In this document: piece by piece, positions 2,011 through 55,863 of the stretch
Numbering within the stretch: position 1 is the stretch's first letter
Layout of the letters: every line of letters starts with the position of its first letter
From: Brassica napus
Taxonomy: Eukaryota; Streptophyta; Magnoliopsida; Brassicales; Brassicaceae
Reading direction: 5' to 3'
DNA: 64,000 nt
Assembly: GCF_020379485.1 (NCBI RefSeq)
Contig: NC_063439.1
Location: forward strand, 23,188,098 to 23,252,097
Made by a program: the position numbers and the translations under genes
The notes under the pieces: model-generated
Database searches by the model: none
Told to the model about the DNA's origin: nothing
Seen by the model: only the letters and a program-made list of their open reading frames with translations

Positions 2011-4676
2011 GTTGAAGTGTGCACGCAAAATAAACGAGAATTTTTACACACAAAAAAAGAGAGACACATTTTACATGCAAACGACCATAACAACATAACG
2101 CCTATGTGTCAAACATGTGATGTCCACGTATATTTTATGTCTTTTCTCGCCTAAAATTTGGCAAGTTTTGTTAATTGTCGGTTTATAAATAACTAATGAG
2201 AAATGCTTAATGGCAAGTGACAGTACTATACTACTGGGATTCAGTTTCTGATAAAAACAAGAACAACTTCACTTTTTCTTCCATAAATCTAAGTTTTATA
2301 GTATTCAGATATGTCTTTACCAATTGTTAGATTCTACATCTGACATGAAATATATGCAAACGTGCTCTATATTGAATACGAGCATTTGTTCAAAAGAAAA
2401 AAAAAAGAATACTAGTATTTCAAATAATGTTACTGAACAAAAACTTTTGGTTTCCACCTACCAACAATTTATTTGTTTCTTTTTTACACAAGATAAAACG
2501 ATTTTTTATTCACAAAAAAAAAATTCAACCAAATTTATCATTCTCTGTATATGCTTAATTGTTGGCAATTTCTAGTCTTATACCAGTAATCTCAATTTGA
2601 TTAATATAAATGCAACTAACAATATACATTCGTCTTGCAGATCTGCAAACCCTACAAACTGAGACACACATATATATAGGTAAGTTATTCTCGAAGGAAA
2701 ATATATTATTATATGCTTTACAATTTTTTTTAAATGTTTAGAAAAGAAAGGAATAACAATAAAGAGAATTCAGAAAGTAGGACGACATAATAAAATTCGT
2801 GGGGAAAGAAAAACATAGGAAATAAATTGTATGTAATGAGATATGCGAATCTAACTTTAGATATGTATCTGATGCATGAAATGAAACACCATTAATCCAT
2901 ATACATTAGTGGCTTCTCGTTGGCCTGTCCGTACGGCCAGCTTTGGACGAATATGTAAACGATAGCTCATTGTAAAGTTATTTTCTTTTTGTTGAAACAG
3001 CTTTTATAAAGTAGCTGAACACTAAAGATGAAACCATATAGTCTAAGGATTTATAATTTAACGTTGATATATGTAAGAAGGTAATATAATATGTAAATGA
3101 AATATAACAAATGGAAACCTTTGTGGCTATTATTTGGTCTAGTCCTGCATTCTTTACTCATAATTGGATACAAAAGAAGCTTTTGAAGCTTCAGCTACTT
3201 GTTTTAGAGCTCCCGAAAGTTGTTGCCCATAGTGGTGAATACGGTACTTTCGAGTATGAAATTAGTCCATTTTTAGTTATTTGACCCATTCTACAAGATT
3301 TGGTTGGCCACAACATACGGGTTTGATCATTAGTTTCCAGTTAATGTGATGCAGCGGCAATAGCCAAGGATGGCGTTATACCGAATATAAATGGACTAAC
3401 TTGACCAACATATAATTCTAACTTTTATCTTTCTTGACACATCTAAAAGTATCTAATCTTAGTACACCAGTAAAGTATGTATTCTCAAAAAAAAAAGAAA
3501 AAATCAAGTTTTTAAACTGCTGTAAACATGGATCTAACGGATTGTAAAGTTATTTATTCATATAATCACAAATTTTAAACAAATATCTGCCTTAATCATT
3601 TTTACTTTTTGTTTTTCTTTTCAAGTTTTGATTTGCATTTGTTCACAACACTTTTGTTGTCACAAGATTTATTAATACGAAAGACTGTTCTCTTATAGTT
3701 TGACCATAACCGTTCGTAACAAGAAAAAAATCTGTTATGATATTGGAATTCTTATGACACAAAGGATTGTGGTGCTATTTGTCAATAATTTAATTACAAA
3801 AACATTTATATATGTGAGAAATGGAGAATCAATAATTAAGAAATTGGGTCCCAAAAGCTCACATGATCTCTGAAAGCCATGTCCAATCCAACCCTCAAAA
3901 TTTGCAATAAGGTGGTTGACAAGACTCTTCTTTTTCTTTGTTTTTAGCGACAAGACTCCTCTTTAAAAGTTAATGTTGTAGAATAAGATTCCTCAAAAAT
4001 ATAACAAAATACTACTACTACTACTACTACATATATAAACGAAAGTTATCCAATGGCACTAGTCCCAACATCGAAATCTTGTTTGCAATATCTTTTGATT
4101 TGGATTAATTAAAAGCGCAATGTGAAATACTAGTAACAGGTTGACAAAAAAGAAAAGAAATACTAGTAACATTGACCTCCAGCAGGTTACTCTGGACTTT
4201 CAACTTTTCAGTATTGTCACCGTCGACAAAATTTATGTTATTTTGGTCGTGCTTGTAGCTTTTACAAACTTATGTCGATAAATTGAAAGCAAACAAATAT
4301 ATGACTTGAACCAAACTGGCATAGACATGATGTAAAGGGTCAAGGACAAGCAATTGGTAATGGCAATCATAAAAAAGAGATCCAAAAAGAGAAGTGAACG
4401 ACTTAAGAAACAATGATTTGAGAATAGTGGTTAGCTTACCATTGATATTGCTTTGTGTTTGGGTTTTGTCCAACAAAATTGACTGGAATTACATGTAGAG
4501 GGAACATGTGGGTGGGTATGAAGGCATTAATGATTAGCAGAGTGGCATCCAAATAATTATGATCTCCACAAGGAAACAGACCCTACTTTTCAACCCAATC
4601 CTCTCCTCTTCACACCTCTATAGATTTTTCTCCCATCCCTTCATTGAGTTTCAATTTGTCTATATTTCTTCAAATA

Positions 4677-22755: not shown

Positions 22756-23600
22756 TCATCGCCCTTTAGGGTTTACAATTTGAGAAAATATCCCACTGCT
22801 TTCCTCGGAAGACAAGTCACTCACGTCATGTTCTCCGGCGCCGCCGACGTTAACCGCCATACCACCACCTTCTCCAGCTAAATCCTCGGACTCACCTCCA
22901 CGGCTAGGCGTTGGTTGTCGCGACCCATCAGCAGTTTCTTGTAACTGAAGCGCAAACTCAAGATTCCACAAAACATCTCCCATCGTCGGCCGATCTAAAC
23001 CACTATCCGAAAGACACTTCTCCGCCGTGTCCGCAAACTTCTTCAAACATTCAGGATTAATCTTCCCTTTCAGATTAGGATCAATGATATCCTCTAACGT
23101 CCCTTTCTTTTTACAGTTCGTCGCCCAGTCACCAAGACTCACTTGCTCCTTAGGCAAGCTAGGGTTTAAAGCCGGTCTAGCACATAAGATCTCAAACAAA
23201 ACAACTCCAAAAGAGTACACGTCTGACTTCTCGGTTAACTGCTGTCTCCTAAAGTACTCTGGATCTAAGTAACCGAAGCTTCCTTTGACTACGGTCGTGA
23301 CATGACCTTGGTTCATGTTCGGTCCGGTTTTGGATAAACCAAAGTCGGAGACCTTCGCAACCCAATTCTCATCGAGTAAGATGTTCGTTGTCTTCACGTC
23401 ACGGTGTATGATCGTATACTTTGCACCTGTGTCAGGGCCAGCTCAACATGTTAGTGGACCCTGGGAAAAACAATTTTTGGCCCTTAAAAATTATATTATA
23501 TTACACTTTTCCTAAAATTTTACTTTATGAAATTTTATATATTATAATAAAAAAAAAAAAAACGGCTCTTTTGTTTCGTTAAACAATTTTTTTATATAAA

Positions 23601-23631
<31 letters not shown>

Positions 23632-25747
23632 TCAGAGTCTTAATTAATATAACATGGGGACAATGGGATTGGAACAGGTTGGTCGTACCTATTGTTCCCC
23701 TATTAGAGATTTAGAGGCAGCACTGACCTGTGTGAAGGTAATGCAACCCTCTTGCAGATCCAATAGCGAGCTCTAGACGTCGTTTCCAAGTTAACTGAGG
23801 TCTCTTCGTGTTGTAAAGATGCTCCCTAAGTGTTCCGAGTGACATGTAATCGTATATCAAACACATCTCTCCTCCATCGTCGCAGTAACCTATCAAGGAG
23901 ACCAAGTGTTTGTGTCTTAACCTCGAGAGAAGTTCTATCTCTGTCTCGAACTCGTTGAGACCTTGTTCTGAGTTAGGGTTTGATTTCTTGATGGCCACTT
24001 TTGTGGTTCCGTCTATAACTCCTTTGTAAACTTTACCAAACCCTCCAACTCCTATCACGTTAGACTCATCGAAGTTTTGAGTTCCGTGTTTGATCTCAGA
24101 CAACGTGAATCTTCGACATAGACCAGCTGCAAGGTTAGATAAGTGGCTTCCCGTGTTGCTCTTACCGGATATAGTAGATTTTGTTGCGGACGTGTGTGAG
24201 TTTCCGTATATAGGAAGCCAACTCGACGTGTAAGAGTCGCTTCCTTGGAACTTACGTTTCCTTTGATACATTGTGAAACACAACGCACATAGTAAAATCG
24301 CTGCTACTCCACCAGCTGAACCGATGATAAAAGCTGTGATTCTTTTGTCTCTTCGAAACTCTCTTTTACCATCTTGGTTAGCTTGCATAGGAGATGGTTT
24401 AGGGTTTGGACCCGCTAGGTTTTTCATCGTGTCCATCTTGAAAATCTCTAACCCGTTGAGCTGTGAGTCGAGATACTCTGGTTGAGCAAATTTAGAAGGA
24501 GTCATCTGAAGTGAAACATCTTCGCCTCCTGCTCCTCCGTTGCTAGCATCAACGTACATCGCGTAGTCCTTGTAGGTTGGGACACCTTTCCCTCCTGACC
24601 ACGCGATTATATCCGCAGCGTTGGTGTCCCCTTGTGCGGTTCTGTTGTTGATGTATATGTTGAAAGCTTTTTGATTAACTTTAGATTGCTGGAACTCACA
24701 GAAGTGGAGTCTCATGATGTAGGTGAAGTTAGTATCAACTTGAAACATCCATGTGAGATTAGAATTAACGTTGAGGTCTCCGTTTGGTCCTTGTGATCTA
24801 GCTGTTTTGTAGACATCAGGTGGTGCGGTCGAGACCGGCATTTTCTGGTAATCAATCCTGAAGTTGTTGCTTGCTTGAAGGGTAACACCAAGACCTGCGC
24901 TGGGACGAAACTAATATTACATATGTTGTGGTTTTAGGCCTAAGAGTATTACGGGCTTCGACCCCGAACCTCCTGGTATTCAAAAAAAGAAAAAAAACAC
25001 CAGACCTGCGCTGAATATGTAAGGCGCATCGTTGTACCAAGTTCTAGTTAACCCGCCAGAGTCTTGGCTTCCGGGAATGTCCTGACCGCCAACGTTAAGC
25101 CTAAACATGGTCTGAAGATTCGCGGACTTAGCATCTGCTGTTTGGTCTGTGAACCCAACGAGAACAGCTGTATCAAACAGCTCCGGCATCTCAACGACTT
25201 CAATACCGTTTATGAAAGCAAACGCTTTAGGATGTTTATCTGAAGGAGTAAACGTGATGGTCAAGGCATCTTTTAGGGTTGGTGCAAGAGAATATTCTCT
25301 AACGAGGTAAGCTTGTGTTAAGGCTTGACATGTGATAGCTGCACTAAAGTTGCTTAGAAGGGTGATATCATTAGCTGCTACAGAGAAGTAAGAGTCATCA
25401 ATGTTGAGTCCTGTGTATTCTGATGGGTAGAAATGCAACCGGAGCAAATGTCTTTTGTCTCCTTTAACCGGGATCTCATAAGTCGCGGGAGCTGTGAAGA
25501 TTCTTGCTGTCATATAAGGAATTGTTGAGAGAAGAGATGGATCTTGATACGTAGCTGTTGCATGATCCGTGTTTGGTGTTTTCAAGAACTTGGTGTCGGG
25601 TTCCCATTTCTTCTTGTCTGGATCAGAAGATGGTTCTGATGCCCCGCATGCCAACGCGAGATCTTGGCCGTTAGATTGAGAGATAGAAACTAGAATAACA
25701 GAGAAGAAACAGAGGAGGGAACACAGGGTCCTCGTTTTCTCGTTCAT
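22756..25747 (-). CDS. ANX1: ANXUR1-like CrRLK1L receptor kinase, coding sequence split by two transposon insertions
   Basis: It reads as Arabidopsis ANX1 (At3g04690, pollen-tube receptor kinase that keeps the tube wall intact): signal peptide, two malectin-like regions (25.7-24.5 kb), transmembrane helix ([20 protein letters not shown]), then a kinase with [19 protein letters not shown] and SDFGLSK, and the C-terminus [11 protein letters not shown]. Two elements interrupt it: a SINE (24903-25001) and a hAT-type MITE (23433-23725). Read straight through, translation stops inside the SINE after about 255 residues. If 24895-25005 (111 nt) and 23427-23727 (301 nt) were spliced as GT...AG introns, exons 25006-25747, 23728-24894 and 22756-23426 give 860 codons with no other lesion, close to the usual 850 aa. 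Either a pseudogene or a gene with two new introns; Arabidopsis ANX1 has no introns in its coding part as I recall. Confidence 0.85.
23433..23725. mobile_element. hAT-type MITE inside the ANX1 kinase region
   Basis: 293 bp flanked by an 8-bp target duplication ACCTGTGT (23425-23432; 23726-23733). The left end CAGGGCCAGC and the right end (reverse complement CAGTGCTGCC) are hAT-like termini. The interior is AT-rich with a TA run at about 23601-23625; no transposase. It sits in the kinase catalytic region just before HRDVK. On the gene strand the insertion adds a TAA stop five codons after the junction. Confidence 0.85.
24903..25001 (+). mobile_element. Short SINE insertion in the ANX1 ectodomain
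   Basis: About 99 bp flanked by a 12-bp duplication AGACCTGCGCTG (24891-24902; 25002-25013). It contains a B-box-like CTTCGACCCC (24956-24965) and ends in an A-rich tail (CAAAAAAAGAAAAAAAA), as expected for a target-primed SINE. It is shorter than usual, so probably 5'-truncated. Antisense to ANX1, its tail becomes a T-rich tract that includes an in-frame TGA. Confidence 0.8.
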
Positions 25748-26715
25748 GGCTGAAACATTAGATAAATTACGTGTTTTAAATCCTCAGGAACATAAAAGGT
25801 TAATTTTCTTAGTGGGATTGTTATTACCTCAAGAAACCAGGAGAGAAAACTTGGAGGCTTGTTTCTTCTCCTCTCTCCAAACCTAACAATGTATGATCAA
25901 AGCCATGGAAACAGGAGCAGAAACCTCAACAAGACAAAAACAAACAGTTCGTTTTCCTTGGTCATTGGATTTTTCTCATTTTTTTTGGTGTTGTGTCTGA
26001 AACAGAAACAGAAAGTAGTTAGAGAATCCATGGTGGAGAGGATTAATAGTAGAAAACTATTTTAAGCAAATTTGGTTAGAGCTTTGAAGAGAGAAAAATA
26101 TACTTTTGAGTTATTAATTCTTACACTAATGAAATAAAATTCATGACTTAAAACTATATTGACTTGATTCTTAAAATAGGAAAAAATAACAGGTTTGATC
26201 AATGTACATTCTTGTAGAGTAGGATAATTATGAAACACGTTTTCTTTTTTGGGAGTCAAGAATCTAAACAAAGAAAGATCCCTAAATAAATGAGGATGAG
26301 TCTTTTGTATATCAAATTTAAACAATGGAGGAAAATAGCTTTTGACTCCATTGCATAAATCAATGGTGAAAACTACTTTCTCAAATCCTCCATTAAAGGC
26401 TCTTTGAGTCTCTTTTTGTGAGAGTTTATGTGGTCGGGTTTGGCAAAATTTTCAGGTAGAAAAAGAGTATACAGAAGATTTTCTGATCAACCCGACCCGT
26501 AGAAGCTTCTTTGTTGGCCGTGTTAGTTGGTTTTCACATGCGGCCAGCAGATGAAGAACATACATCTAGACTCATAAGCAAAATCCAAAGCTATATTCTC
26601 CTAAAGAAAACAGGTAGTAAAATAAGCCCTAGCTTGTACCAGAAGGTATCTTTTCCAATTCTAAGAACAAATCACCTGCCTTGCATTACAAGTAATCTTT
26701 TTAAAAGATATAAAA
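25748..26715. other. Divergent intergenic region between ANX1 and the DUF1685 gene
   Basis: It should hold both promoters. The ANX1 side shows a plausible 5'-leader intron boundary near 25828 on the minus strand (CTTGAG|GTAATAAC). No other gene is seen. Confidence 0.45.
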
Positions 26716-50945: not shown

Positions 50946-51844
50946 CTTTTAGCTTTCTAAGCTAAAAAAAAATTAGAGTTTTTCATCATGTAGAAATTTC
51001 ATTAAAAACTAATAGTTGATCTAAAAAAAAATTTTTTTTACAACTTTCTCTGCATTAAGCATGTTACTAGATAATAACATTGGTTTTAGATAAGTTTCAA
51101 AAAAGAAAAAAACATTGGTTTTAGATTACTCTAGTTCGTCTTGTAGCCACTTAACTGAGGTTTTTTTTGTCAACCACTTAACTGACTTATTATTTTGTTC
51201 CCAATAACACTTTCTAAAATGCATGAAAATGATAATAATGTTATAATTACTTAAAATGAAAAAAATCTGGTAAGTACAACACAAGAGAACATCATTTAGA
51301 AATTGGTTTAGTTTGTAATCTTCAAATTTTCAAAGTTCTGAGAGAGAGTATTTGAATCCAAAAAGAAATTTCATGTTTGTTCTTAGTTTTTAAAGATACA
51401 AAAAGTAGGTGAAAAAGAAGATAATTAGTCGAAAGAAAAAAATGCATGAGTTTAGAAAAAGAAATTAGATTTTTTCTTTTAGTTGGTTTGTTTAATTATG
51501 CATGTCTACGACATAAGATTTTTTTAATATTGATAAAAAAAATGAGAATCTTTAATAAATTATATAAACATTGAAACTAAGATTGTCAATAAAGGAATGA
51601 AAACCTGTCAGATTCTTTAAGTTATTTTCAAAATGAATATAACAAAGAAGGTTTTCAAAAAAGAAAAAAAAAAGAAAGCAAACTCAAGAATGGAACATTA
51701 TGCAATGCCATAAGGAAAACAAGTGAAGCATTAACCACCGGACCAATGAAAAATATATGTTACTAGTTTGGCGCCCCTAGAATATATACATATTTTGGCG
51801 CCGAAAGCCCAAGCGTTACGGGCTTTAGCCCAGGGCCGGCTCTG
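50851..51844. mobile_element. hAT-like non-autonomous element, about 1 kb
   Basis: 994 bp flanked by an 8-bp duplication TATAGGAA (50843-50850; 51845-51852). Termini CAGTGCCGGTCCTG and, reverse complemented from the right, CAGAGCCGGCCCTG: near-perfect hAT-type inverted repeats. The interior is AT-rich with a TA microsatellite (about 50917-50942) and no transposase frame. It is inserted in a piece of another transposon (51853-52030). Confidence 0.85.
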
Positions 51845-55310: not shown

Positions 55311-55863
55311 ATCTACAACGCTATGGTATTTCTATACCATTTGCGCTAAATGGAATAGCTTATTTTTTCTATTCACATATTCTTTATACGTATTATAACT
55401 TTATATTGTATTTTATATTTGGGGTTTAGGGTTAATGATTAGAGTTTATGATTTAATATAGGTTTTGGGTTTAGTGATTGGGGTTTAGGGTTTAATATTT
55501 AGGGAGGGGGTGGGTTTAGTGTTTTGGGGATGTTAGGGAAGTGTTGGTGTGGAGTCTATAAATGAAATAGTATTTTATATTTGGGTATTTTTTAATCTAC
55601 AACGCTCTCGTATTTCTATGTCATTTGCGTTAAATGGAATAGCTTTTTTTTCTATTTACATATTCTTTATATGTATTATAACTTTATATTATATTTTATA
55701 TTTGGATTTACGGTTAATGATTAGAGTTTAGGGTTTAGAATAGGGTTTGGGTTTAGTGATTCGGGTTTAGGGTTTAATATTTAAAGGTTGGGGAGGGGGA
55801 GTTGGGTTTAGTGTTTTGGGGATGTTAGGGGAGTGTTGGTGGGATCTGTAAATGGAATAGTAG
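55311..55863. repeat. Tandem duplication, 284-bp period, with telomere-like motifs
   Basis: ATCTACAACGCT begins at 55311 and again at 55595. Both copies continue through AAATGGAATAGCTT, a run of GGGTTTAGGGTT-like phrases, GTGTTTTGGGGATGTTAG and TAAATGRAATAGTA. The second copy ends near 55863. The repeated TTTAGGG-like phrases resemble degenerate plant telomere repeats but are irregular. Non-coding. Confidence 0.75.

Follow-up and report, generated by a model that had tools for sequence, protein, structure and literature searches.

The window, a 64,000-nt stretch of Brassica napus DNA, carries on its minus strand (25747 to 22756) a receptor kinase gene whose coding sequence is broken by two transposable elements, and this raises the question of whether the insertions have killed the gene or have become introns. 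The three open pieces of the gene match malectin-like and kinase domains, and both elements lie in segments that begin with GT and end with AG. We recomputed the two excisions proposed by the initial annotation, and removal of 24895-25005 (111 nt, GTCTGG...GCGCAG) and of 23427-23727 (301 nt, GTCAGT...ACACAG) does regenerate an uninterrupted frame, giving a joined coding sequence of 2580 nt (859 aa plus the stop) with zero further stops and zero shifts. The resulting layout comprises coding exon 1 of an ANX2-like receptor kinase (25006..25747, ATG at 25747), intron 1 (CAG|GTCTGG...GCGCAG|GT), coding exon 2 (23728..24894), intron 2 (CAG|GTCAGT...ACACAG|GT) and coding exon 3 including the stop (22756..23426), all on the minus strand and with both introns in phase 1. 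Each intron is composed of a transposable element and one copy of its target, the element being an antisense SINE in intron 1 and a hAT MITE in intron 2. As had been claimed, CAG|GT lies inside both target duplications, which are perfect on recheck over 12 nt (CAGCGCAGGTCT) and 8 nt (ACACAGGT), respectively. If retained, each insert contributes in-frame stops, both in the window gene and in a second copy of this gene on C439 (the C439 copy). A likely 5′ UTR intron, predicted by eye at 25750..25827 (minus strand, GAG|GTAATAAC...TTTCAG|CCATG), has splice sites that are conserved in the C439 copy.

The gene had been named ANX1, a name that we replace since the ectodomain bit scores and the phylogeny identify it as an ANX2 co-orthologue. 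The ectodomain scores 820 bits against ANXUR2 (6fih) and 772 against ANXUR1 (6fig), which are comparable chains, and 865 bits against a longer ANXUR2 chain (6a5c). In a tree of 20 proteins, where the window gene is represented by P0001 (a B. rapa protein, 99% identical), the Brassica pair falls within the ANX2 clade (100/99) and the ANX1 clade is apart (99/99); the ANX1 identity is thus rejected by both the structure matches and the clade placement. The 997-Mb assembly was searched with the B. rapa ANX2 and the Arabidopsis ANX1 proteins, scoring the best 53 of about 4700 candidates per query. Both queries returned the same four ANX-type genes, and among the candidates scored neither found an ANX1 orthologue, the next full-length matches having 57-60% identity. 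The four genes form two pairs, C159/C439 (the window type) and C38/C262; none of the four lacks a coding intron, and the corresponding B. rapa proteins fall with ANX2. Because two further related kinase pairs are common to C159 and C439, these were taken as homeologous chromosomes, and the C439 copy would be the homeolog of the window gene. The ANX2 paralogues (L030 and L031) have no interruption at either insertion position. This paralogous pair has a coding intron of its own at codon 282, absent from the window gene (L030:4298-4512, 215 nt, CAG|GTACTG...ATAG|GG; L031:4277-4661, 385 nt, CAG|GTATTG...ACAG|GG). Among the soybean CrRLK1L genes, 73.6% are reported to be without introns (PMC8012678).

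The element in intron 1 is a 5′-truncated SINE fragment with an A-rich tail, antisense to the gene (24903..24995, plus strand in the SINE RNA orientation; the boundaries were set by eye and are uncertain by a few bases). It is flanked, on the plus strand and again by eye, by an exon-side target copy of 19 nt (AACACCAAGACCTGCGCTG, 24884..24902) and an intron-side copy of 18 nt with one A fewer (AACACCAGACCTGCGCTG, 24996..25013). To place it in a family, the best 40 of 176 candidates were scored, the window gene and C439 copies included, and 20 of the best matches were fetched and aligned. The relatives have A-rich tails, and some extend further 5′ into a tRNA-like head (by eye); the window SINE consists of the tail and the 3′ body, the head being missing. 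Since the tails of the relatives are A-rich, the AACACC beside the window tail reads as target DNA, and the original duplication, judged by eye, would have measured about 19 nt, the intron-side copy in the window having since become 1 nt shorter. In both gene copies the intron-side target copies appear by eye to have lost bases since insertion. The donor would have changed from an original GTCTTG to GTCTGG in the window (24995-25005) and to GTGTGT in the C439 copy (L009:5239-5244), so that a G at position +5 would have been gained in each, an observation that we regard as suggestive only.

The element in intron 2 is a non-autonomous hAT element of 293 nt with the ends CAGGGCCAGCTC and CAGTGCTGCCTC (23433..23725, plus strand), lying between two 8-nt target copies ACCTGTGT (gene strand as given above) at 23425..23432 and 23726..23733, both on the plus strand. 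When its interior was searched for, very frequent words being ignored, the sole matches were the C439 copy and a fragment captured from the window gene. The latter, starting at C79:26525522, was considered as an independent copy of the intron-2 interior and rejected, as it is a piece of the window gene itself; it holds 28 nt of exon 2 and most of intron 2 (L052:1023-1131 and 3269-3446), split by an unrelated insertion of about 2.1 kb with a Helitron-like end (by eye). Given that independent interior copies were lacking, the hAT assignment was redone on the element ends. The end pattern gave 111 family matches and its reversed control 0, and 27 of 30 members, which were not a random draw, have an 8-nt duplication (at most one mismatch) together with a similar far end (at least 7 of 12 bases), with a median length of 319 nt. 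The 8-nt duplication and the CAG... terminal inverted repeats shared with this family lead us to class insert 2, from its sequence features, as a hAT MITE of about 0.3 kb. An autonomous element does not fit, given the length of 293 nt and the several stops in the gene-strand frame that runs through it.

The splice signals of the two inserts differ in quality. The hAT donor CAG|GTCAGT agrees with the nine-base donor consensus at 8 of 9 positions, with four of its intron bases supplied by the element end CAGT, and the AT content of this intron is 0.72, compared with 0.58 for the window SINE intron and 0.55 for the coding sequence, in line with the good donor and AT-rich interior described initially. 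A candidate branch site, CTAAC (23450..23454, minus strand), has its A 24 nt before the acceptor and is kept in the C439 copy, the motif lying at -24/-25 in the two copies. The SINE donors match the consensus at 6-7 of 9 positions, and at 6 of 9 in the window copy. The initial annotation was right in calling this donor the weaker one, but the T-rich tract that it credited to the SINE tail adjoins the donor and not the acceptor. A YURAY motif at -15 to -60 is absent from the window SINE intron, and just one of four SINE introns has one (the C439 copy, TTAAT at -22).

The B. rapa protein IGI04_024540 (P0001; 859 aa) reads through both junctions in spliced form. This entry is a gene model (sources ncbi, uniref and nr; from a 50-Mb contig) and one member of a cluster of 20. 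In a B. carinata model (P0012), the part where the second intron lies is missing. Truncated Brassica models that stop within the SINE were also sought; the search with the corresponding 255-aa frame gave 58 relatives, none of them named Brassica (the best was 88% identical; clustering at 90% could hide some). The searchable data yielded no RNA read or transcript contig for the window gene; its splicing and its branch sites are predicted from the sequence. All four ANX-type genes found contain coding introns, no ANX1 orthologue was found, and Arabidopsis plants mutant in both anxur1 and anxur2 are male sterile (PMC12034098), so that splicing of one or more of these introns is to be expected.

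The same SINE family occurs in a comparable position in a second gene. Three of the 20 aligned copies lie antisense in an exon of the gene for filament-like plant protein 7, FPP7 (C116, its near-duplicate C2682, and C379; L063, L064 and L065, minus strand, around 3070-3197), and their target copies contain CAG|GT. Removing the SINE opens a frame of 533-534 aa in all three loci, and retaining it produces a frame shift (C116, 106 nt) or a stop (C379). The C116 and C379 genes differ at 66 of 1599 aligned nt and by one codon in length, with dN of 0.017 and dS of 0.153 (NG86), or 0.019 and 0.108 (YN00). Genome-wide, the exact pattern of AGGT beside the SINE tail has 6 matches (control 0), namely the two ANX2 copies, the three FPP7 loci and one SINE in an apparently old intron, so that an introner-type count gives two genes (five loci) among the six. 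The last match (C485, L070) was rejected as a new intron, as it sits in what appears by eye to be a pre-existing intron of a U-box-type gene and has no shared target copy. The L070 SINE belongs to the same family and has a longer 5′ end.

For FPP7, there is a protein (P0179) that is identical over the query and contains the exact SINE junction; it derives from a contig of 2327 nt with the source tag lgn, which we take to be Logan. The genomic span of residues 20-711, those located in the piece fetched, is 2526 nt, with at least three introns to remove. Since the contig is shorter than this span, it would most simply represent spliced RNA. This junction is also found in P0181, which is isoform X2 of B. 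napus FPP7. The residues around the SINE are skipped in P0186, P0187 and P0191 (B. napus) and in P0189 and P0182 (B. rapa/campestris). Splicing of the FPP7 SINE may thus be variable (alternative), or these proteins may be mis-modelled.

What has happened to the ANX2 gene after the insertions can be read from its comparison with the C439 copy, in which the same two positions are occupied by the SINE and the hAT element and which, once these are taken out, encodes 859 aa with 11 residues changed. The presence of both inserts at identical sites in both copies implies that the two copies diverged after the insertions. Their exons differ at 64 of 2577 nt, distributed as 9, 3 and 52 over the codon positions and as 24, 23 and 17 over exons 1-3, with 0 indels; dN/dS is 0.056 by NG86 (dN 0.0055, dS 0.098) and 0.081 by YN00, and the ML method gives dN 0.0087 and dS 0.093. 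The inserts have accumulated 26 substitutions in 399 nt and 7 indels in about 406 nt (13/102 plus two gaps in one, 13/297 plus five gaps in the other). The difference in indels between exons and inserts is significant (Fisher, 9e-7), and at the indel rate of the inserts about 44 would be expected in the exons. Likewise, the 11 amino-acid replacements, set against about 1932 sites (an assumed 75% of the coding sequence), fall far below the insert substitutions (8e-13). The dN/dS check suggested initially thus reveals purifying selection acting after insertion. For the second ANX2 pair, in which neither site is interrupted, dN/dS is 0.038 (YN00 0.048) and dS 0.12. The two ANX2 types differ by a dS of about 0.5 and the two copies of the window type by about 0.1, which places the insertions later than the Brassica ANX2 duplication but earlier than the parting of the two copies. 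With 1.5e-8 substitutions per site per year, a dS of 0.098 corresponds to about 3 million years; the region upstream of the gene differs by only 1.4% over 731 aligned nt, which speaks against a simple clock. The gene has carried both insertions under selection, over a span that probably runs to millions of years.

These data bear directly on the proposal that the gene was recently killed by the two insertions and that its frame is open simply because it is young. The in-frame stops in both inserts would fit such a pseudogene, and the second ANX2 pair could cover its function. However, the inserts are older than the divergence from the C439 copy, and since then 52 of the 64 exon changes have fallen at third positions, dN has stayed far under the insert rate and the exons have taken up neither an indel nor any other disabling change, such changes having been sought as evidence against a working gene; relaxed constraint is not seen either. 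The comparison would lose its force if the two copies had recently been homogenised as a block, but a dS of 0.098 speaks against a very recent event. We therefore reject recent gene death, which we consider extremely improbable. A milder version, partly compatible with two functional introns, has one element removed efficiently and the other often retained, so that it would reduce the output of ANX2 in the manner of a regulated or poison intron. It draws on the weak SINE donor, on the lack of a clear branch site in the window copy and on the disagreement of the FPP7 models around their SINE, and is countered by the constraint on the exons flanking each insert and by the exactly spliced form annotated in B. 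rapa; we hold it to be rather unlikely, though clearly less so than gene death.

A different kind of doubt concerns why both elements sit at CAG|GT, rather than whether they are spliced. CAGGT occurs twice in the coding sequence, exactly at the two insertion sites, and AGGT 10 times. The fraction of positions whose 12-, 8- and 19-mers contain CAGGT is 0.006, 0.003 and 0.012, respectively, and for AGGT 0.035, 0.019 and 0.062. Multiplied for duplications of 12 and 8 nt, these frequencies give 7e-4 (AGGT) or 2e-5 (CAGGT), and for 19 and 8 nt 1e-3 or 4e-5. Coincidence would be compatible with the fact that these are just two events in one gene, spotted after the fact, but the low products argue against it. 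A target preference would fare no better, as AGGT, on either strand, is found in 1 of 27 hAT family duplications and, among the 17 of 20 SINE copies with a readable tail, adjoins it only in the FPP7 copies, three in number (0 of the 14 others); no targeting of AGGT by either family is visible in these sequences. Accordingly, coincidence or preference strikes us as very improbable, and the removable insertions are best read as survivorship, because a gene that is needed does not keep insertions at other places. The initial suggestion of transposons becoming introns is strongly supported by the shared inserts and the constrained exons; its companion, selection for removable insertions, is better understood as this survivorship.

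Our preferred reading, to which we assign a probability of roughly 0.93, is that two transposable elements landed at CAG|GT in an ANX2 duplicate, are spliced out exactly and have been kept as phase-1 introns. The anatomy of the inserts, the shared sites, the purifying selection after insertion and the existing spliced gene model are direct observations. The sequence of events would be as follows. An antisense SINE and a hAT MITE each entered a coding exon of the ANX2 duplicate at CAG|GT, after the Brassica ANX2 duplication (dS around 0.5) and before the split of the copies (dS around 0.1). With the target duplicated, each element plus one target copy would start with GT and end with AG, and the spliceosome would excise both precisely, leaving the 859-aa pollen receptor kinase unchanged; both would have been retained since then as ordinary introns. 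Catching the origin of a new intron is difficult. Here a single genome shows the source elements, the target copies, an uninterrupted paralogue, the order of events and the selection after insertion, and the pattern occurs at two sites of one gene and recurs in another. The protosplice model is thereby opened to direct tests in a crop, and the question arises of whether an antisense SINE is inherently intron-like.

The mechanism and transposon-derived introns in Brassica are already known; what stands out is two element classes in one gene and one SINE family in two genes. Work by Iwamoto in 1998 reportedly described a case in plant catalase genes, in which the rice element is said to be a SINE, and work by Giroux in 1994 reportedly concerned maize Dissociation. 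Ds belongs to the hAT group. The gain of introns by transposon insertion at an AGGT protosplice site has been set out by Yenerall and Zhou (2012; PMC3443670), and the present case is alike in that the AGGT duplication supplies donor and acceptor and leaves the coding sequence unchanged; it differs in having two element classes in one gene and a measure of selection after the event. That review, which cites the Iwamoto and Giroux studies, tabulates plant cases from Oryza and Zea, which resemble ours as short plant elements acting as introns, whereas here the introns are common to both copies in an allopolyploid and use the target duplications exactly. In B. rapa, LTR/Copia insertions have been reported as new introns (PMC9241368). 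These involve the same genus and exonic transposons acting as introns, but are 4.7-4.8 kb long and polymorphic among accessions, while ours are 0.1-0.3 kb and older than the split of the copies. ONSEN insertions spliced as new introns in Arabidopsis (PMC12112155) are likewise intronized insertions in a Brassicaceae plant; however, ONSEN is an LTR retrotransposon whose insertions there were newly induced, and the use of target duplications is not described in the sections of that paper on which we draw. Introners, for which PMC9860276 reports no evidence in land plants, are similar as non-autonomous elements that produce introns, but give rise to introns in many genes. A SINE intron in Brassica is not reported in the titles and abstract openings of the open-licence papers searched.

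More tentatively, the antisense Brassica SINE at CAG|GT could be close to a ready-made intron and act as a low-level plant introner, with the ANX2 duplicates, the sole ANX genes found after ANX1 loss, as a hotspot of intron gain; we consider this joint idea possible, though doubtful as a whole. The SINE features behind it are a U-rich tract provided by the tail, a GUAAU-like branch region (by eye), and an acceptor and a donor provided by the target copies. Within the same speculative proposal, the hotspot would count three coding introns in two ANX2 duplicates, if the codon-282 intron is also a gain. Elsewhere in the window, another hAT-type end (CAGGGCCGGCTC) lies at 51831-51842, a match so loose as to be near chance, and short degenerate telomere-like repeats (GGTTTAGGG) are found at 55423-55498.
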